A DNA stretch of 64,000 nucleotides from Acetatifactor sp. (GTDB lineage: Bacteria; Bacillota; Clostridia; Lachnospirales; Lachnospiraceae), in assembly GCA_022511465.1 (NCBI GenBank), contig JAFLRM010000001.1, forward strand, positions 1 through 64,000. The letters run 5' to 3'. Below, in pieces: positions 51,996 to 62,914 of this stretch. Within the stretch, counting starts at the first letter, position 1, and each line of letters begins with the position of its first letter. The position numbers and the translations under genes are program-made. The notes under the pieces are model-generated. The model was not told the origin of the DNA. It did not search any database and saw nothing but the letters and a program-made list of their open reading frames with translations.

Positions 51996-52037
51996 ATGGA
52001 AGGAAAAATAAAGAAAGATGCTACACCTTTCTCATAA
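51996..52037 (+). pseudogene. decapitated gene start after the initiating transferase
   Basis: TAA-ATG coupling with a strong GGGAAGGGAGCG SD begins MEGKIKKD, then the frame runs out within 13 codons and overlaps the 3' end of the convergent GtrA gene. This looks like the first codons of the next gene in the original operon, lost when the minus-strand module was joined here. The original product cannot be told. Confidence 0.5.
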
Positions 52038-52416
52038 ACACCAAGAACTTCTGTCCCAAGTAATTTACCGTCATTCCGCAAATTGTGGCTGCCAGATATG
52101 CTAACAATTTGTATCCTGTACAGTTGAACACCAGATAATTTACGCCGAGATTAGTTCCCAAATTAGCGCCAAATACCAAATAAAACCTAATGATATACCA
52201 TACATCTGTCTTATCCTTGTTTTCAAAAGTAAAGCTTTTATTTGCTATGTATGAGAATATCGAAGAGATGATCATAGAAATACCCTTTGATAAAGTGATC
52301 GGCAACTTCATGGACAGTAGTATATAGATTACAAAATCTATGCCTGTGGAGCAACCGCCTACGATCAAAAACTTCAATATGATATTGGTTTTAACTTTGT
52401 TCCATAATTCATTCAT
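52021..52416 (-). CDS. GtrA-family membrane protein
   Basis: A 131-residue protein with four membrane helices. The GtrA pattern is clear: LKFLIVGGCSTGIDFVIYIL near 14-33, SYIANKSFTFENKD near 56-69, YLVFGANLGTNLGVNYLVF near 78, and the ending VNYLGQKFLVF. GtrA proteins are thought to move polyprenyl-phosphate sugars across the membrane and normally partner a GtrB/DPM1-like transferase; two such GT2 genes are in this window (22.0 and 60.3 kb) but neither is adjacent. The start lies 3 bp after the stop of the truncated HAD gene, so it is probably translated from that transcript. Confidence 0.9.
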   Translation of the reverse strand: MNELWNKVKTNIILKFLIVGGCSTGIDFVIYILLSMKLPITLSKGISMIISSIFSYIANKSFTFENKDKTDVWYIIRFYLVFGANLGTNLGVNYLVFNCTGYKLLAYLAATICGMTVNYLGQKFLVFMRKV

Positions 52417-52419
52417 ATA

Positions 52420-52875
52420 TCAGTTATATCCAAATACCTTTACATATTTCGCACCGGAAAGTTCTGCCGCTTTCAGTCCAGCCTCAGAATCTTCGAAAAT
52501 AATTGTATTTTCTATTCCTACGCCAGCAATATCCATAACCTTCATGAAGCATTCAGGGTCTGGTTTCGTTTTATTTACATCTTCTTGGGTGATTATAAAA
52601 TCAAAACTATTTTTCACGCCAAATTCCATCAAAATATCCATTGTATTAGCCTTTGACGCAGTGGTCACAAGAGCTAACTGATACGCAGGCTTTATCAGAT
52701 CAATGATCGTAAACATCTGTTCATTCTTTTTGGCGAGATGCAGACATTTCTTGTATATCTTCTGTAAGCGCAAAGTAATAGGGTGTTTCACCTGAAAAAC
52801 TAGGGAGTTCTCACTCGTTAGATTTATTGACACAGCATTCCTGGACTGCAGGACTTCAAGGTGCCATCTTTTCAA
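52420..52875 (-). pseudogene. 5'-truncated HAD-family phosphatase
   Basis: The recognisable HAD part covers motif II (LALVTTASKANT), motif III (NKTKPDPECFMKV) and motif IV (IIFEDSEAGLKAAELSG), as in beta-phosphoglucomutase-like phosphatases. The N-terminal DxD nucleophile motif is gone. The first 20 or so codons of the ORF (KRWHLEVLQSRN) are not HAD but out-of-frame IS66 end sequence. So an IS66 insertion removed the 5' part and the product should be inactive. Intact relatives would supply phosphosugar phosphatase activity to the glycan pathway. Confidence 0.8.
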
Positions 52876-53525
52876 GTCCCTCGTCAGACATGTTTTTATC
52901 TGGTCTTGCTTCGAGAAGGTATTCCAGATATTTCTGGGGATTCAGACCATTCAATCTTGCAGTCTCGAGCAGGGAATATACCATCATACTGGCATTAGCT
53001 CCGTCTGTGGAATCGCAGAACAGCCAGTTGCGCCTGCCCACGGTCACGGGACGGATAGAATTCTCGCTTAAATTGTTCGAAATGCTACAGTGTCCGTCCT
53101 CAAGATAGGTCATCATGTAGTTTTGCTGGTTTCGTGCATAAGTCAGTGCTCTGGATAAACGGCTTCCGATTGGAGCGTTCTGCTTATTGATTCACGCCAA
53201 GAAAGCCTCTACGACAGGTTTTTGATTCTTGAGACGGCGGTTATATATCTGCTTGTAGGAGAGCCCTTTTTCACGGTAACTCCCCTCGTATTCGAATAGT
53301 TTATTGCAGTAGAGGAATCCCTGTACGGCAGGATTGGTGTAATCCTTTTCTTTGCCCTTGGGGATCGCCTACAGAAAGTATCTTCTGATGTGTGCATAGC
53401 AGCAACACCTTTTGAAGTCCTTTAACTTGTTGTATCCGGCATATCCGTCTACGTTGATGTAGGTGCCGGGTTCCAATCCTTCAAAGAACTTCGCGGCAGC
53501 ATCACCATTTCTTGTTGGATGTATT
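52853..53525 (-). pseudogene. IS66-family transposase remnant (copy A)
   Basis: C-terminal half of an IS66 TnpC-like transposase. Reading down the minus strand: NGDAAAKFFEGLEPGTYINVDGYAGYNKLKDFK, then CCCYAHIRRYFL, then LSENSIRPVTVGRRNWLFCD with the DDE glutamate and TGANASMMVYSLLETARLNGL. Two in-frame stops interrupt it (53369-53371 TAG, 53192-53194 TGA), and no N-terminal half or left end is found. It abuts the truncated HAD gene. Confidence 0.85.
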
Positions 53526-53649
53526 TAACGTTAGAGCCCCAGATATTGCCAAAAACAATGGTACAGAAAATTTGCAAAACACCGATTTACTCGTCTGTCT
53601 ACCAAATTTTGAAGATTCCTTCCATATCCCTTATATTTGGTTTTAGTCA

Positions 53650-54045
53650 ATAAATGTATTCATATTTTGCCGTTTCGGAAATGCTGTAGATCATGGCGCT
53701 TGCTTCGGCACCTTTGATAGAGTCATGGAATAACCCGTTCTTTTTGCCGATACAGAATGTCCTGATGGCGCGCTCCGCGGCGGAACTATTGATCGATATC
53801 TCACCATCAGTCAGGAAAACTTTCCGGTATTCTTCCTGATTTACGCTGTAACGCAGGCCTTCAGCAGTTTTACTTTTCAGTGGAACAGCATTCTATTCAA
53901 GCTGCTGTTTTACCCACGCAAAATACTCTTCAACAAGCAGCTTTATTGGTGTCTGCCGCTCCAGATGTCATTCATGGGGGTGTGTTCCTTCAGTGCCTCC
54001 TCCAGTTTATATAGCAATGCAATCTGGCCTACTGTCTATGATGTT
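53650..54045 (-). pseudogene. second, different IS66-family transposase remnant (copy B)
   Basis: Minus-strand reading gives KLEEALKEHTPMNDIW, a frame change, a stop, then YSVNQEEYRKVFLTDGEISI, SSAAERAIRTFCIGKKNGLF and ASAMIYSISETAK. The AERAIR...IGKKNGLF version of the E-containing motif differs from SENSIR...VGRRNWLF of copy A, so these are remnants of two IS66 subgroups. The interval 53526-53649 shows no gene. 54046-54278 holds only a CACCGTTA/TAACGGTG hairpin (54059-54085). Confidence 0.75.
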
Positions 54046-54278
54046 GTTAATGGATGCCCACCGTTAAGCCACGTATATAACGGTGCCAATCCTGATGTCG
54101 AACAAACTCATCTTACTGTTACCGAAACCCAAATAATCAAGGGAATGATCCATAATAACAATTAAGGAACATATAAACTGAGTCCATCTTATCTTTTTAC
54201 TCGTCAATATGCTAATACTTGCTTTTTCATCCACAATGTAATTCCCTCTATTTTCAATTCTTAAATGCTTTGGTACGT

Positions 54279-55814
54279 TTACTTATCGACTCTTCTGTCT
54301 ATTACTTTTAAGACAAAGTCTCTCGTTTCCGTAAATAGTGAATCTTTTTTGTAAATTATATAAAATAGAATACATGGTATAATAATACATAAGATTCCTC
54401 TGATCATTAAATCAGCAAATAAATTAATGTTTACTAACTGACATACTGAAAAGCAGAAAACACCAACTATTGTTGTAACAAATATGTATTTTATATAATT
54501 CCATATATATGAAACAACACTGTATTGCTTAAAATAGTTATTGAACAGAATTTTCGTCTGCCATATAAAGTTAAAGAAAAAGAGTGTTATAACAGTTGCC
54601 AGTACAATTCCAAATACTCCCCAAAAATAGCCCAAAAAAATATTCAATAATAAATTGCAGATAGATTCAAATATTGTGCGATAGCGATTCTCCCACCAAA
54701 GACCGACGGCTCCTGAATAAGCATTTGTAATATCACCCATCGTCTGCCACAAGAAGTAGATACACAATAGAATTACAATGTAAAAGGGAAACATATTCTC
54801 AGTCCCAACCCAAAGTTCCATAAAAGGTTGATATAAGCATAGCAAACAGATTGCGCACCAAGACGCAATCAACGAATACATAAAGGTAAATTTGTTGTAA
54901 TCGCGATAGTTTTTTTCGAGAGATTCCAATGCTACACTATTGCCTATTCCTGCTTTCATAGATGTTACAAATATGACAAGCACACTAGCAATATTACTTA
55001 AAATGTAAAAATAGTTCCCATAAATTGCCACAGTTGTCAGACCTAAAAAAGATGAAATGATAATACTATCAAAAGTATTTCTGGTCATTCCGCAAAATTT
55101 GCTGACTACTGTTCCGCTTACTTTCTCTTTTACATCTTTAAGGATATCATCCGGAACTTTTCCCAAAGGTCGATACTGAGGATAATATTTTTTTGATAAT
55201 ACGTTTGTAATAATATTATTAGCAATACTAATCGCTGGAACTAAGATATAATAGCAATAGTAATTTCTAAAGACAACTAATACTACTGCCTGCGCCCCAT
55301 ACTGCACAATCAATAAGGCGGAATATATTTTACTGATAACATCTTCTCTTTGAAATGCAGAAAAAAGTACGCTTTTATATGCAAACATGAAGTAGCTGAC
55401 ACTTGCATTGAATAGGTATAGCAAGTACAAATAATAGATGTTAATATTTGCCGGCACATCTTCATGAATGAATAAATGAAGAAATGGCATGAATATTATC
55501 CCTATTCCCAAAATCATAATGCCAACAATTTTATAAATCTTTCTATAGAGATTCAGTAATTGGCAAATTAGTTCTTCGTCATTGTTTGCAATCGGTCCAT
55601 ACATACTAAAGGCAATTGCCGAGCCGAATCCCAACTCCGCCATGCTCAAAACCTGCAGTATAGATGTAAACAAACTACTCAATCCAAGGTATTCTACTCC
55701 AAGCATGTATATAATCAGAGTTCTGATTAAAAATGGTCCCAATAAAGCAATCGCGCGGTTCAAAATACCCCATATTGAATTCCTAATCGCATTTTTTTTG
55801 CGCTCAAGTCTCAT
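54279..55814 (-). CDS. Wzx-type oligosaccharide flippase
   Basis: A 511-residue membrane protein with about 12-14 helices of the polysaccharide transporter family. N-terminal RNSIWGILNRAIALLGPFLI, then TLIIYMLGVEYLGLSSLFTS and AELGFGSAIAFSMY are characteristic of flippases of Gram-positive capsule loci. From ATG 55814 (minus strand) a GAGGGAA SD is well placed; the track start at 55838 lacks one. It is the last intact gene of the minus-strand module before the IS66 debris. It is not closely similar to the flippase at 48 kb by eye. Confidence 0.9.
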   Translation of the reverse strand: MRLERKKNAIRNSIWGILNRAIALLGPFLIRTLIIYMLGVEYLGLSSLFTSILQVLSMAELGFGSAIAFSMYGPIANNDEELICQLLNLYRKIYKIVGIMILGIGIIFMPFLHLFIHEDVPANINIYYLYLLYLFNASVSYFMFAYKSVLFSAFQREDVISKIYSALLIVQYGAQAVVLVVFRNYYCYYILVPAISIANNIITNVLSKKYYPQYRPLGKVPDDILKDVKEKVSGTVVSKFCGMTRNTFDSIIISSFLGLTTVAIYGNYFYILSNIASVLVIFVTSMKAGIGNSVALESLEKNYRDYNKFTFMYSLIASWCAICLLCLYQPFMELWVGTENMFPFYIVILLCIYFLWQTMGDITNAYSGAVGLWWENRYRTIFESICNLLLNIFLGYFWGVFGIVLATVITLFFFNFIWQTKILFNNYFKQYSVVSYIWNYIKYIFVTTIVGVFCFSVCQLVNINLFADLMIRGILCIIIPCILFYIIYKKDSLFTETRDFVLKVIDRRVDK

Positions 55815-55842
55815 ATATAATTCCCTCGTTATATCCATACAA

Positions 55843-57244: not shown

Positions 57245-57435
57245 CTACTTGATAGCTCCTATCAGTACATCTGATTCGTTGTATGCGTCAAATGATATTC
57301 TCTTCAGATGCACCAGTTCTCTTTCGTCTATACCCATCTCCAACTTTCCCTTATCTCACTTTGTGAATTGTAAATCCAAGAATATACTAGGTCATGGAAA
57401 GCACAGGTCGCGTCCAGAACTATTGTCCTATGGTT
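57245..57435 (-). pseudogene. decayed DDE transposase fragment (IS1182/IS5-like)
   Basis: Two minus-strand segments in different frames resemble this transposase group: IVLDATCAFHDLVYSW (compare the VLDATCAP-type motif) and, after a frame change, RELVHLKRISFDAYNESDVL (compare ISWDAYNES-type motif). Stops and frameshifts break it, and no ends are seen. The gap 57225-57482 holds nothing else. Confidence 0.4.
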
Positions 57436-57482
57436 TTCATTTTCAAAGTTTCCCTCTGATCTATCTAACCTCTTCAAACTAT

Positions 57483-58076
57483 CTACTTACTTAATTTCAC
57501 AATGAAGTGTAACTTTCTATCAAATAGCAAATGAAATAATCCAGTGTATAAATTCAAATGAGTGATTTTTATGTCAATTTTTAGCCCATTTTTCGCAAAA
57601 CAATCCCTCCATTGTCTTTCTGTCCAGTAATTATAAGGTAGGCGGACATGGTAATGGGCATTACCAACATAGTCCATAGCACGAAGTTTTATATAAGATA
57701 AAAAACCATGTTTTATATGATCTTTGATTATGATATGTTTATTTGCCACCCGAACCAATTCTGCAATGAGCTTCTCTGGTTCATCTGTATGATGCAGCAC
57801 ATCTATAACCGTTACCGCATCAAAAGAATCATCATCATATGGAATCATCTTTCCATCATATTCTTGCACTTCAATAAATGTATCTGGACGCACAAGGACA
57901 TCTATCCCACGAATTGATATGTTGACATTTTTTTTAATCAGGTAATCTATTCTCCCATCGCCACATCCAACATCTAATACCGAATGCGAGTCATCAAGTA
58001 ATGGAGTGATTAACTCTGCTAATCTGCTCATTCTACGGGTGTAAATCATCTTATCATGAACCTTTTTTGTAAACAT
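57483..58076 (-). CDS. class I SAM-dependent methyltransferase
   Basis: A 197-residue Rossmann-type methyltransferase. SAM-binding motif I HSVLDVGCGDGRIDYLI near 31-47, motif II-like IRGIDVLV near 55, the acidic IPYDDDSFDAVTVIDVLHHT near 78-97 (motif IV), and a helical C-terminus. The small size and motif order fit Methyltransf_11. AAAGGATGG SD upstream. In a polysaccharide cluster it could O-methylate a sugar or modify a lipid-linked precursor; no substrate clue is visible. The gene ends next to transposase debris but appears complete. Confidence 0.87.
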   Translation of the reverse strand: MFTKKVHDKMIYTRRMSRLAELITPLLDDSHSVLDVGCGDGRIDYLIKKNVNISIRGIDVLVRPDTFIEVQEYDGKMIPYDDDSFDAVTVIDVLHHTDEPEKLIAELVRVANKHIIIKDHIKHGFLSYIKLRAMDYVGNAHYHVRLPYNYWTERQWRDCFAKNGLKIDIKITHLNLYTGLFHLLFDRKLHFIVKLSK

Positions 58077-58159: not shown

Positions 58160-59368
58160 CTACCAATAAAACCAATACCAGACCATTTCAATACAGTTCC
58201 ACGCTACAGCAAATAGCAATAATACGTTTGCGACCCTACGTTTTTTCTTACTTAAACTCATAAGCCACTGTAAAAAGTAAGCTAATGGCCAAGCGATTAA
58301 TGTCAAATAATTGACATAAGCCCGTCTCCCAATTCCGGCCGGAGCCCAGCTAGCACATACAAGATATAAATCTACTAACAGGCACAATAACAATCCTATT
58401 ACCGTATACCTATTACTTTGTTTATCTCTTAGCATAAATATAACTCCCGGAATTGTTACCAATAATAATGGTGAAAGTTTTATCATGCCAGAAATAGTAT
58501 CTTCTCCAAACATAACTTTTATAATTTGCGGATGGAACCAGTCAAAACTCCATTCTCCATAACTATTATATATCCATTGACCTGAAGACAGTTTCCAATA
58601 GAGCATCATTGGAAAAAAAGCTATAATAAAACCTATCGCGGCAATAAGCAAATCCATCAAGTAATTTTTATACTTAATTTTATCCTTTTGAGAAACACAG
58701 TCGCCTAATATATACATCATTGGAACTATAGCAATAATAATGTTTACGTTCCGCAAATTGGTTATTAATCCCAATAAAACTCCACATATTATCGCTTTCC
58801 ACCGTGTTTTGTATGAAAAATATCTATAGAAAGATACACAGAATAAAGCAATTGTAGCAAAAGAATATGTATGAGAAAGACATGCATCTATCGACGAATA
58901 ATGAAAAAGTCTAGTACCAAACGTTATTAAGACACATGATAGCAATGCAATCCTTTTTTCAAATTTTTTACATAATAACCAATATGTGCAAGCTATTCCA
59001 ATAACCCAGTATATTATTGCATTTAATAAGATAGCTTTCTCATAAATAAATCCGTAGCCCGTTACATTTCCTTGAACAAACAGCTGAATAACCTCTGCAA
59101 CAAAAAAAAGGGGCATCCAACACACCGCAACTCCCAATGGATATCTGTTAACTCCGTTCACCAAAAATGAATTTGTACCATTCCCCAAAAAAGAAAAGGA
59201 AATATCTTTATAGATAAAAGTCGCTGGAAGGTACGCATAGTAACCAATTCCATCCACTCGTATAGTACTTGTATACGCTTCACAAGAAGAATATATCCAC
59301 ATATCCACTAGGCCCAAAGCAAAAATGCCTACAATAATGAAAAGGAAAAATTTTCTATCTTTGAACAT
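58160..59368 (-). CDS. GT-C type membrane glycosyltransferase candidate
   Basis: A 402-residue protein with about ten membrane helices. After the first helix comes the loop RVDGIGYYAYLPATFIYKDI near 38-57, with the Asp typical of the first periplasmic loop in GT-C enzymes; a second loop NGVNRYPLGVAVCWMPLFFV follows near 70. These features are common to membrane glycosyltransferases that use polyprenyl-phosphate sugars, which the DPM1-like GT2 two genes upstream would supply. It overlaps the radical SAM gene by 14 bp, so the two are translationally linked. Alternative: a polymerase. Confidence 0.75.
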   Translation of the reverse strand: MFKDRKFFLFIIVGIFALGLVDMWIYSSCEAYTSTIRVDGIGYYAYLPATFIYKDISFSFLGNGTNSFLVNGVNRYPLGVAVCWMPLFFVAEVIQLFVQGNVTGYGFIYEKAILLNAIIYWVIGIACTYWLLCKKFEKRIALLSCVLITFGTRLFHYSSIDACLSHTYSFATIALFCVSFYRYFSYKTRWKAIICGVLLGLITNLRNVNIIIAIVPMMYILGDCVSQKDKIKYKNYLMDLLIAAIGFIIAFFPMMLYWKLSSGQWIYNSYGEWSFDWFHPQIIKVMFGEDTISGMIKLSPLLLVTIPGVIFMLRDKQSNRYTVIGLLLCLLVDLYLVCASWAPAGIGRRAYVNYLTLIAWPLAYFLQWLMSLSKKKRRVANVLLLFAVAWNCIEMVWYWFYW

Positions 59369-60305
59369 TGCATCCCCCCCTTTCTCTCAAATAATTTTTC
59401 ATAAATGTATTCCTTATTCCCGCGTCTACAAAATCACATCCCTGGCAAAATCCATATAAATTGCGATCTTTACCTAAACTCTTTCGTATACTTTTAAATA
59501 CATTACCACTCCAAATTTCTTGCAATGATGAATAGTTTACATTTCCTAAATTTGTTTTTTCAATTGCATCACTACAACACAAACCTATCACTCCATCCGG
59601 ATATATAATTATGTCTGTATATGGCATAATACAAATTTTGTGATTTATTCTACCTGTTTTCTTGTTCGGTGCGAAACCGGCACGGTTCGTTAGTATTTCA
59701 TGAATATATCGTATTTGTATTATAATGTCTTTGGATAACAATTCGGGCGAAGACTTCACACATTCAATTAATTCTTTTAAATTTGAATGTAATTCCAATG
59801 TTTCTGAGTAATTGTTAATTATCATTTTGTCAACATAAGGTATAATTTTATGAAACCGATCTTGTGTAATAAGCGTACCGTTTGTATACAACAACATTTT
59901 TGCATTAGGAAGATTATCCTTTGCATATTTGTACAAATCTTCAATTCTTACATCGATAAAAGGCTCATTATTAACGTATAAATTCAAGTAACCACTATAA
60001 TCCATATCCGCAAGTTCTGCAATTATCTTTTGAAATAATTCATCAGACATTTTCTTGAAGGGTCTTTTTTCTGCATTCTTATTTGCTGGGCAAAAATCAC
60101 AAGTACTATTGCATCTATTAATCGTTTCAATTGATATAATGCATGGTTGAAAACATTCCTTTTCAAATTCTTCTATATACCTTTTAAACAAACTCTTTCG
60201 TAAAAAATATTGCATCTCTAAGTATGCTTTACTAGTATAAGATGAAAAATGCTTACGAAGAAACCAGCCGAATTTCCCACCATATGTTACTACCTTAATT
60301 CCCAC
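59355..60305 (-). CDS. radical SAM protein with SPASM-like domain
   Basis: A 316-residue radical SAM enzyme. The cluster motif is CNSTCDFC (Cys65, Cys69, Cys72), preceded by IISIETINR; VNNEPFID near 112 and LLYTNGTLIT near 139 are later core motifs. The C-terminus contains CIMPYTDIIIYPDGVIGLCC near 223 and CQGC near 297, the cysteine layout of a SPASM/Twitch auxiliary-cluster domain. GTG start with an AGGGGGGGA SD, 2 bp after the GT2 stop. Reaction unknown; relatives modify peptides or oxidise/epimerise small substrates such as sugars. The setting between a GT2 and a GT-C gene points to a glycan or lipid-linked sugar substrate (inference). Confidence 0.85.
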   Translation of the reverse strand: MGIKVVTYGGKFGWFLRKHFSSYTSKAYLEMQYFLRKSLFKRYIEEFEKECFQPCIISIETINRCNSTCDFCPANKNAEKRPFKKMSDELFQKIIAELADMDYSGYLNLYVNNEPFIDVRIEDLYKYAKDNLPNAKMLLYTNGTLITQDRFHKIIPYVDKMIINNYSETLELHSNLKELIECVKSSPELLSKDIIIQIRYIHEILTNRAGFAPNKKTGRINHKICIMPYTDIIIYPDGVIGLCCSDAIEKTNLGNVNYSSLQEIWSGNVFKSIRKSLGKDRNLYGFCQGCDFVDAGIRNTFMKNYLRERGGCNVQR

Positions 60306-60307
60306 TA

Positions 60308-61471
60308 CTAATCCCCCCCTGAACTCTCTTGTTTATTCAAATCAAGAATGCCTATAAAAAAGCTGGAAAAAATAAATTCTATACCAAGTGCAATTAGAAC
60401 AGCAGCAGGAATAGTAAGCCGCATAAAACTTTCAGGAAACAATGCTCCATAATCCTTTTGAGACCATATAACAAAGGCTATAATAGTTAAAACACTTCCA
60501 ACTATCACGAAAATAGCCCCCCCGAAAATACCAAAATCAACACTAAACTGTTCAATTAGATCCGCCTTTTGGCATTTTACAAGAAAATGCGAATTTCTGG
60601 CATACACTTTAGTGAACGTATATAAAAAGATGATTTTTACTCCTATAATGATAAAGAAAGCCATATAAAGTAATGTATGAACCCCAAACGCCACCTCCCC
60701 TATTTCAACATTTCCAAACAGTTCAATCAATACACCTCCCAAAAGTCCAATTACACATAAAGTCACCCCTGGGTATAAAAAAAGCCAATCCGGGCAATAC
60801 ATGAACAGAAACTTCAAATGTCGCCACCCATCCTTAAAGCTTCGTAAATGAGGCCGGCGACTCCTTCCATCTTTTTTTAATGTAGTTGGAACCTCCGCAA
60901 TTCTCAGTCCGTGCAGTTCAGACATCACCACCATTTCACTTGCATATTCCATTCCCGTAGTTTTTAGGTGAAGATTTTTTATTGCCTCTGTATGGTATCC
61001 TCTTAGACCGCAATGAAAATCTTTGATATTACTTTTGTAAAAAACTCTGCCAATATAAGAAAGAATAGGATTTCCTATATATTGATGCGACCAAGGCATT
61101 GCTCCCTTCTCTATTCCTCCAGCAAATCGATTTCCCATGACCAGATCGTATCCTTCCTGAAGTTTCAATAGAAAGGGGTGCAGATTAACAAAATCATAGC
61201 TGTCATCAGCATCTCCCATAATGATGTATTTTCCGTGTGCCGCATTGGTTCCTGCTATTAAAGCGCTTCCATATCCTCTCTGCTCTACCGATATCACTCT
61301 TGCGCCCAAATTAATTGCAATATCAATACTTCCATCCGTGCTGCCATTGTCTGCAATCAGCACCTCTCCAGATACATCATTGTCATGTAGAAACTTGAAA
61401 GCTTTTTGTATACAGGTTCCTAAAGTTTCCGCCTCATTCAAGCAAGGCATAAGTATAGTAAGTTCGCACAT
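60308..61471 (-). CDS. DPM1-like GT2 glycosyltransferase with C-terminal membrane helices
   Basis: Polyprenyl-phosphate glycosyltransferase-like protein, 387 residues from ATG 61471 (GGAGG SD 7 bp upstream; the track start 61504 precedes it). GT-A part: ELTILMPCLNEAETLGTCIQ, IADNGSTDGSIDIA near 44, GDADDSYDFVNL near 84, GNRFAGGIEKGAMPW near 111 and a HCGLRGYHTEAI near 151. Then four membrane helices from about 225 to 380. The AMPWSHQYIGN motif is typical of the dolichol-phosphate-mannose-synthase-like group in bacteria. It probably makes the Und-P-sugar used by the GT-C gene downstream. Confidence 0.9.
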   Translation of the reverse strand: MCELTILMPCLNEAETLGTCIQKAFKFLHDNDVSGEVLIADNGSTDGSIDIAINLGARVISVEQRGYGSALIAGTNAAHGKYIIMGDADDSYDFVNLHPFLLKLQEGYDLVMGNRFAGGIEKGAMPWSHQYIGNPILSYIGRVFYKSNIKDFHCGLRGYHTEAIKNLHLKTTGMEYASEMVVMSELHGLRIAEVPTTLKKDGRSRRPHLRSFKDGWRHLKFLFMYCPDWLFLYPGVTLCVIGLLGGVLIELFGNVEIGEVAFGVHTLLYMAFFIIIGVKIIFLYTFTKVYARNSHFLVKCQKADLIEQFSVDFGIFGGAIFVIVGSVLTIIAFVIWSQKDYGALFPESFMRLTIPAAVLIALGIEFIFSSFFIGILDLNKQESSGGD

Positions 61472-61497: not shown

Positions 61498-61722
61498 TTA
61501 CCAATCAGGCGGAAGATCTAGTGGTATAATGTCGTATCCGTGATAAAACAAAATTTGTCTTCTGTAATAATTTATAGAAGAGGAAAAGTAACTGGTTCCA
61601 AAATCTTCGAATGTACCTACTCGCCTATCTTGAAGTATTTCATATGCAACTCTCCTATTGTTTTCACAAATACTCCAATCACTAGAGCAACTAAGCTGAA
61701 GTGTTGGAATTTTAATTACCAA
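61498..61722 (-). CDS. short ORF, probable 3' fragment of an unknown gene
   Basis: A 74-codon frame ending 27 bp before the GT2 start. It has no SD at its start and its frame continues upstream to about 61740, where it meets the end of the UDP-glucuronate decarboxylase remnant. The sequence (SYFSSSINYYRRQILFYHGY...PLDLPPDW) is soluble, Tyr- and Ser-rich, and not recognised. Most likely the tail of a gene that lost its 5' part in the same deletion that truncated the decarboxylase. Confidence 0.4.
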   Translation of the reverse strand: MVIKIPTLQLSCSSDWSICENNRRVAYEILQDRRVGTFEDFGTSYFSSSINYYRRQILFYHGYDIIPLDLPPDW

Positions 61723-61743
61723 AAATACTATTATTTCAGCACA

Positions 61744-61894
61744 ATATAATTGTTCGATAACAAATGCCTAATATTTTCTTTGCTTCCAGTAAAGAGATTA
61801 TCAACACATATGACATCATTACTTTCCCTGATTAATCTGTCACACAAATGCGATCCTAAAAAACCTGCCCCCCGGTCACTAATACTCTCTTCAT
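61744..61894 (-). pseudogene. 5' fragment of a UDP-glucuronate decarboxylase/epimerase (frameshifted)
   Basis: ATG at 61894 on the minus strand begins KRVLVTGG, then a run of six G (61868-61873) is one base short and the frame shifts. In the next frame the SDR continues [40 protein letters not shown] and stops near 61744. This is the N-terminal Rossmann part of a UXS-type SDR, about 50 of 310 residues. Both the frameshift and the truncation make it non-functional. Confidence 0.75.
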
Positions 61895-62182
61895 TTTTCT
61901 TTTTTGCCCCTTTATTTCTTTTTGAATAGTCTTTTCACTTCAATCAAATACACGCTCCTTGTTATCATCAAGCGTAACATGCGCAAGGAGCTTCCAAGTG
62001 ATTGGCTGGACGGGCTCCATAATGTATACACAAACATCAAGGAACCTCATGAAGAAAAAAAGGAGTACATAGGCCAACCTTTCGAAGGAACTCACTTATG
62101 ATAAGTTATGCTGCAAGTGGGGCTGAAGTAAGTAACATTGGGGCTCCATTTTACATTTGTTACAAATAATAGATAATTTACT
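61895..62182. other. non-coding interval, possible mobile-element remnant
   Basis: Between the decarboxylase remnant and the methyltransferase gene. A plus-strand frame gives KRNMRKELPSDWLDGLHNVY and then stops, without an SD, and is followed by GGGGCTCCATTTTACATTTG-like sequence that could be a decayed IS end. I cannot assign it. Confidence 0.3.
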
Positions 62183-62914
62183 CTATTTCTTTTCCCCTAT
62201 TGTTACCAATAAGTACCCTTGTCCCAGCTCATCCAAGTTAAATTTTTGTTTTAATAATTTTGACATCGCTTTTCTAAGATAATGTCTTGGAGGCAAGAAA
62301 TTCAATGCATGCTGTGTTCCAATTGTATATTCATAAATTTCATTATATCCTGCTAAATAAAATTCATTTTTTAGGCTAAATTGTGGTATTTCAAGCCCGT
62401 ACTCCCATGTCCCATTGTCTTCCATCATCTTTTTACCAACTCTATATGCCAATGAAGCGGCATTAGGCACCATACATATCATTCTATTTGCCAATCTCCG
62501 CCAACTTCTTATCAAATTGATCCGCTCATCCTGTTCAAAATGTTCTAAAAGTCCACAATGAAAAACCGTATCAAATTCATTGTCATTAAAGGGCAGTTCC
62601 TTTGTAGCATCTAAACATTTTGTATCAATTTTTATATCCATCCTTTTTGCCAGTTCATTTATCAAATTTATACTATCTTCTGAATAATCAAGTGCAGTAA
62701 GAATTCTGCCCTTTGTAGCCAAATATGCCGATGTCTGCCCTGTTCCACAACCTATCTCAAGGCATTTTTCTCCCACGGAAGTCAATTTTAATAATTCTCT
62801 GCTCCAACAGGGTATTCTATCATTTGAGATATCTTCCACTATTTTTTCTGCTAATCCAATTTGAGCATGTTTCGCCCATTCCTCTTTTTTTAATGCTTTT
62901 TCTTGACTACTCAT
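62183..62914 (-). CDS. class I SAM-dependent methyltransferase
   Basis: A 243-residue methyltransferase: SAM motif I EKCLEIGCGTGQTSAYLA near 48-65, ALDYSEDSINLI near 75 (acidic residue binding the ribose), LDATKELPFNDNEFDTVFHC near 100-119 and GLLEHFEQDERINLI near 120. The C-terminal third (NEFYLAGYNEIYEYTIGTQH) would form the substrate side. AAGGAGG SD before ATG 62914. It lies 22 bp after the polymerase-like gene and is likely co-transcribed. Substrate is probably a glycan or a lipid-linked intermediate, inferred from context only. It is not obviously a paralogue of the methyltransferase at 57.5 kb. Confidence 0.87.
   Translation of the reverse strand: MSSQEKALKKEEWAKHAQIGLAEKIVEDISNDRIPCWSRELLKLTSVGEKCLEIGCGTGQTSAYLATKGRILTALDYSEDSINLINELAKRMDIKIDTKCLDATKELPFNDNEFDTVFHCGLLEHFEQDERINLIRSWRRLANRMICMVPNAASLAYRVGKKMMEDNGTWEYGLEIPQFSLKNEFYLAGYNEIYEYTIGTQHALNFLPPRHYLRKAMSKLLKQKFNLDELGQGYLLVTIGEKK

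Follow-up and report, generated by a model that had tools for sequence, protein, structure and literature searches.

A BtrN-fold radical SAM enzyme gene beside a predicted polyprenyl-phosphate sugar synthase gene, with a possible role in tailoring surface-glycan sugars

In the first 64,000 nucleotides of contig JAFLRM010000001.1 of Acetatifactor sp. (assembly GCA_022511465.1; hereafter, the window), a minus-strand gene at positions 59355..60305 encodes a 316-aa radical SAM/twitch enzyme with a BtrN-type fold, located in a surface-glycan cluster next to the gene for a predicted polyprenyl-phosphate sugar synthase. We propose, with a probability of about one half, that this enzyme tailors a nucleotide- or undecaprenyl-phosphate-linked sugar on which a putative transmembrane glycosylation module acts. 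The BtrN-type fold and the glycosylation module are each already known; a search of the accessible literature, outside of which most subscription papers lie, yielded no report that links them. To our knowledge, the twitch radical SAM enzymes described so far as acting on sugars belong to antibiotic pathways. A conserved relative of these enzymes that works with a synthase of lipid-linked sugars in gut bacteria would extend radical chemistry to the assembly of surface glycans.

According to the listing of open reading frames, the gene begins with a GTG codon at position 60305, which is preceded by a Shine-Dalgarno-like run (AGGGGGG), and its stop codon occupies positions 59355-59357 of the minus strand. 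Two Pfam domains pass their cut-offs in the encoded protein, namely Radical_SAM (PF04055, residues 59-157, E 1.2e-7) and SPASM (PF13186, residues 225-291, E 1.4e-12). The complete CxxxCxxC motif reported by the initial annotation is present in this real minus-strand frame as C65/C69/C72 (60090..60113, minus strand). These cysteines, which correspond to C16/C20/C23 of BtrN and are kept throughout the family, are the predicted ligands of the SAM-cleaving [4Fe-4S] cluster, and the sequence CNSTCDFC is the sole CxxxCxxC motif among the open frames of at least 150 codons in the window. The retained cysteines, the PF04055 match, and the agreement of the structural model with BtrN place the protein in the radical SAM superfamily.

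The clear solved relative of this protein is BtrN, as detected by phmmer against the PDB (E 4.5e-21, residues 56-295). A profile of 31 homologues matched BtrN at 8e-31, and the next match, NifB at 5e-6, covered the core only. The AlphaFold model (pLDDT 89.6) also had BtrN as its best Foldseek match (4m7t, the complex with AdoMet and substrate, at E 9e-19 and a target-length TM of 0.84), and the fold matches to SuiB, BlsE, SpeY, and EpeE were far weaker. The identity to BtrN in the fold alignment is about 21%. A helical and basic N-terminal extension (residues 1-50; 60156..60305, minus strand) is absent from BtrN. Family members carry a net charge of +2 to +11 over their first ~55 aligned residues, and we infer that the extension possibly contacts the membrane or a partner protein. 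The prokaryotic viperin assignment was rejected, with 26.4 bits against the cut-off of 180 for NCBIfam NF038283, and 28.9 bits, in the core only, for the PADLOC pVip model.

The C-terminal cysteines distinguish between two architectures. The BtrN-type twitch domain with one auxiliary cluster is defined by four cysteine ligands spaced C-x17-C ... C-x2-C, and the protein has exactly such a set, C225, C243, C287, and C290 (59436..59633, minus strand), which are invariant, align with C169/C187/C232/C235 of BtrN, and are predicted from the alignment to ligate an auxiliary [4Fe-4S] cluster. The two-cluster SPASM architecture calls for at least seven conserved C-terminal cysteines, and the five invariant ones found here (C225, C243, C244, C287, and C290) are too few. 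The SPASM-type cysteines noted previously are therefore real insofar as PF13186 scores above its cut-off; however, they fit a one-cluster twitch domain and not a full SPASM domain. All seven cluster-ligand cysteines are conserved in the family, as is R208 (59682..59684, minus strand), an invariant residue aligned with BtrN Arg152, which we take to be the proposed active-site base of that enzyme. In the alignment, the counterpart of R152 is thus retained, whereas Y62 of BtrN is replaced by N112 and F188 by a cysteine.

This last substitution, C244 (59574..59576, minus strand), lies beside an auxiliary-cluster ligand and is a cysteine in 33 of 33 family members, in place of Phe188 in BtrN. We consider C244 a reasonable candidate for a hydrogen-atom donor, because the radical epimerase NeoN uses Cys249 as its hydrogen donor (PMC10991966) and because HygY is, by the title of its report, a twitch epimerase in which mutation of one cysteine brings out a latent dehydrogenase activity (doi 10.1021/jacs.1c05727); C244 is likened to these residues by its possible role only. 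Two points count against this argument. Cys249 of NeoN stands between Asp248 and Tyr250 and therefore, unlike C244, does not directly follow a cysteine, and twitch and SPASM proteins in general may often carry CC and CCC motifs.

The gene on the upstream side (60308..61471, minus strand) encodes a 387-aa DPM1/GtrB/AglJ-like GT2 glycosyltransferase, a predicted polyprenyl-phosphate sugar synthase, and its stop codon lies 2 bp upstream of the radical SAM gene. The GT2 protein matches PF00535 (E 2.3e-24), its best NCBIfam model, AglJ, stays below cut-off, and its nearest solved relative is the dolichol-phosphate mannose synthase DPMS (5mlz, E 2.5e-8). Its true start is likely the ATG at 61471, located behind a GGAGG sequence, rather than the TTG at 61504. 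On the other side, the end of the radical SAM gene overlaps by 14 bp a gene (58160..59368, minus strand) for a 402-aa membrane protein with a DGxxYYxYLP motif, a candidate GT-C-type glycosyltransferase. This protein has no Pfam match; its model is of low confidence (pLDDT 58), and the PDB matches of the model are mainly to GT-C enzymes (PglB, OST, AftA, Emb, Pmt4), at E 3e-3 or worse, so that the GT-C identity is suggestive only. Homologues with ~30% identity keep D39/G40 and the DGxxYYxYLP motif. The position between a DPM1-like GT2 and a GT-C gene given in the initial annotation was accordingly confirmed, with its GT-C end depending on the low-confidence model.

Three-component glycosylation systems combine a GT2, a GtrA-family flippase, and a GT-C enzyme. 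The first is present here, a GtrA-family gene (PF04138, E 1.3e-23) is found at 52021..52416 on the minus strand, and the GT-C is recognized by low-confidence fold only. The GtrA-family protein is possibly the third component of the module, although its gene lies ~6 kb off, beyond insertion debris. The same cluster includes genes for a Wzx-like flippase (54279..55838, minus strand; PF01943, below cut-off) and, downstream of the GT-C candidate, a SAM-dependent methyltransferase (57483..58076, minus strand; PF13489/PF08241).

The glycan cluster runs on along the contig to about 75 kb and is a decaying mosaic. Gene debris was observed at 61500-62200, 57245-57500, and 52400-54200, including a minus-strand fragment at 61731-61847 that reads like an NAD-dependent sugar epimerase, as well as sequences resembling transposase and HAD remnants. 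Over positions 40000-64000 the GC content drops, with values near 0.50 at 40 kb and near 0.33 at 54-64 kb, which agrees with a horizontal origin of the minus-strand cluster. Repeats near the radical SAM gene are at background level. Elsewhere on this contig, another glycan locus (L041:631-8388) contains CDP-glucose pathway-like and methyltransferase-like genes along with genes for a PMT_2-like membrane protein and a GT2, and has no radical SAM gene.

The comparison of homologous gene neighborhoods suggested in the initial annotation gave a divided answer, with the GT2 kept in the close clade across three phyla and variable partners in the wider family. The close relatives (60-67% identity) come from two Treponema, two rumen or gut Pseudomonadota, and one Clostridiaceae assembly, and together with the window gene they form a supported clade (98/99) that spans Bacillota, Spirochaetota, and Pseudomonadota. 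In all six complete loci of this clade, the immediate neighbor of the radical SAM gene, in either gene order, is a gene for a GT2 of this one family. In one of them (L027) the pair stands alone amid housekeeping genes, which makes it a compact system for finding the substrate. The GT2 beside one Treponema gene (L026:5225-6442) reads as two pieces of 179 and 157 aa, and may be broken or misassembled. Two sister loci (L036 and L038) also carry this GT2 (62% and 52% identity), while their radical SAM proteins share no more than 46% and 44% identity with that of the window. On the radical SAM tree the GT2 label is clustered, with none of 500 shuffles giving as low a value.

In the main Lachnospiraceae clade, this GT2 gives way to other neighbors, namely a membrane protein of the DUF6044 type in 10 loci and an FAD oxidoreductase of the PRK07208 type in 13 loci including L029. 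Of 32 loci compared, 10 have none of the GT2, DUF6044, or flavoprotein genes within 3.5 kb. A recurrent module of DUF6044, radical SAM, and an opposite-strand PRK07208-type FAD oxidoreductase was seen in eight Lachnospiraceae loci (L030, L031, L035, L042, L043, L045, L049, L050). In the reverse search, the GT2 was found in 19 other genomes of the family, with the radical SAM gene beside it in one, and 11 of the 19 adjoin a gene for a multi-spanning protein homologous to the neighbor in L025 and L028; no homology was found between that protein and the GT-C candidate of the window. Since the GT2 usually occurs without the radical SAM gene, we rejected the idea of a dedicated pair; the radical SAM gene looks like an accessory that a unit of GT2 and membrane protein can carry or lack, and its product like an optional tailoring enzyme.

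The distribution of the radical SAM gene is sporadic (22 of 299 genomes in the family, 3 of 399 in the phylum, and 2 of 195 and 2 of 153 in two other sampled groups). No close homologue was found in IMG/VR, and the BFVD search returned generic radical SAM matches only. An unverified fecal 'phage' scaffold (MT835743, L063:5660-6601) carries a 44.6% homologue, and may be a misassigned bacterial fragment. On plasmid pBHWA1 of Brachyspira hyodysenteriae (L064:3971-16729), several radical SAM genes lie beside rhamnose-type sugar genes, and one of them encodes a 25% relative; a gene block on this plasmid has been linked, by its presence, to virulence (PMC4267127).

In the mechanism that we propose, the GT2 would load a sugar onto polyprenyl phosphate. 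At the cytoplasmic face, the radical SAM enzyme would change one carbon of this sugar, in either its lipid-linked or its nucleotide-linked form; a flippase would turn the lipid-linked sugar over, and the GT-C enzyme would transfer the modified sugar to a surface glycan. The fold class, the cluster ligands, the conserved residues, and the linkage to the GT2 come from the analysis itself, and the substrate, the stage, the reaction, and the flippase are inferred. A sugar or lipid-linked sugar substrate is favored because the pairing with the GT2 is kept across three phyla. The earlier suggestion of a sugar, lipid-linked sugar, or surface-protein modification is thereby narrowed to its first two parts, and the surface protein survives only within a rival reading. 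Among sugar-tailoring reactions, epimerization has roughly even odds: a 5'-deoxyadenosyl radical would take a ring hydrogen and C244 would return a hydrogen to the other face, in a redox-neutral reaction. Dehydrogenation is the main rival within this class, though rather improbable, and other reactions taken together are about equally so. Two considerations put epimerization ahead of dehydrogenation: the presence of C244, and the stand-alone gene pair in L027, which has no partner to use a ketone. A more specific version, with a radical SAM epimerase acting on an undecaprenyl-phosphate sugar within the module, would provide an irreversible radical route to a stereoisomer, bypassing nucleotide-sugar epimerases, in a module that moves between gut phyla; we regard it as doubtful. 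Precedent for altering a sugar once it is bound to the lipid exists in DprE1/E2 and in the three-component system with the SDR ORF13, and the authors of that pentofuranose study state that further epimerases in side-chain systems of this sort were not known to them (PMC11127046). The DUF6044 and flavoprotein partners in the main Lachnospiraceae clade, the loci without any of these partners, and the non-adjacent GtrA gene count against the proposal.

Three other readings were weighed against sugar tailoring by a GT2-linked enzyme. The enzyme may be a BtrN-like dehydrogenase that converts a hydroxyl of the nucleotide- or lipid-linked sugar to a ketone and passes the second electron to its auxiliary cluster. 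In favor of this, the dehydrogenase BtrN oxidizes an aminocyclitol (PMC9012708), R208 and the four-cysteine auxiliary cluster are conserved, and SpeY, another twitch dehydrogenase, appears as a weaker fold match; however, the family has an invariant extra cysteine where BtrN has Phe, and no dedicated aminotransferase or reductase lies beside the pair, for example in L027, which leaves this reading unlikely. Equally unlikely is that the target lies elsewhere in the envelope pathway, be it the polyprenyl tail, the acceptor glycan, or a peptide or surface protein whose gene lies outside the locus. The variable partners of the wider family (DUF6044, flavoprotein, or none) speak for such a target, and peptides are often modified by radical SAM/twitch enzymes, whereas the closest fold is that of a small-molecule enzyme and the GT2 linkage holds in the close clade. 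Finally, the gene could be mobile cargo that spreads horizontally and has no functional tie to its incidental neighbors, as its sporadic cross-phylum distribution and the low-GC mosaic cluster with decayed genes might indicate; this is quite improbable, as the GT2 stays adjacent through transfers between phyla, in both orders, and the junctions are overlapping and operon-like.

A peptide-maturase role, already judged unlikely for lack of a visible precursor, was further weakened. When the 3-kb flanks of the radical SAM gene were compared across 33 loci, no ORF of 20-110 aa recurred from one locus to another, RiPP-type families are absent from the tally of the 100 nearest neighbors, where the GT2, flavoprotein, and DUF6044 appear instead, and none of the NCBIfam maturase models reaches its cut-off on the protein, whose nearest solved relative is BtrN. 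We therefore rejected a RiPP maturase and consider this role unlikely, with a distant precursor peptide encoded elsewhere being possible.

Among known systems, BtrN (2-deoxy-scyllo-inosamine dehydrogenase of the butirosin pathway; PDB 4m7s/4m7t) resembles the window enzyme in its fold, RS motif, four auxiliary ligands, Arg152 counterpart, and single auxiliary cluster; it differs in having Phe188 in place of C244, in lacking the ~50-residue basic N-terminal extension, and in serving an antibiotic pathway instead of a surface-glycan cluster. The twitch epimerases NeoN and HygY share radical SAM chemistry, sugar-type substrates, and a catalytic cysteine donor (by title for HygY, and with C244 as a candidate only), but belong to aminoglycoside pathways. 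The SPASM maturases of anaerobic sulfatases and RiPPs (anSME, SuiB, CteB) likewise combine a radical SAM core with a Cys-rich C-terminal domain, at the level of weak fold matches; in contrast to our enzyme, they have two auxiliary clusters and act on peptides or proteins, and no precursor was found at our locus. The GtrB/GtrA/GT-C and CsbB-GtcA-YfhO systems (PMC8035078) have the same membrane GT2, GT-C (a candidate here), and GtrA-family flippase, the last being 6 kb from the module in the window, and none of the papers considered here on such transmembrane glycosylation systems, PMC8035078 among them, mentions a radical SAM component. The closest parallels to the proposed reaction are DprE1/E2 and ORF13 of Citrobacter youngae O2 (PMC11127046), in which a sugar is epimerized after loading on polyprenyl phosphate, in an arabinan or three-component pathway, though by unrelated proteins that use flavin- or NAD-dependent oxidation and reduction.
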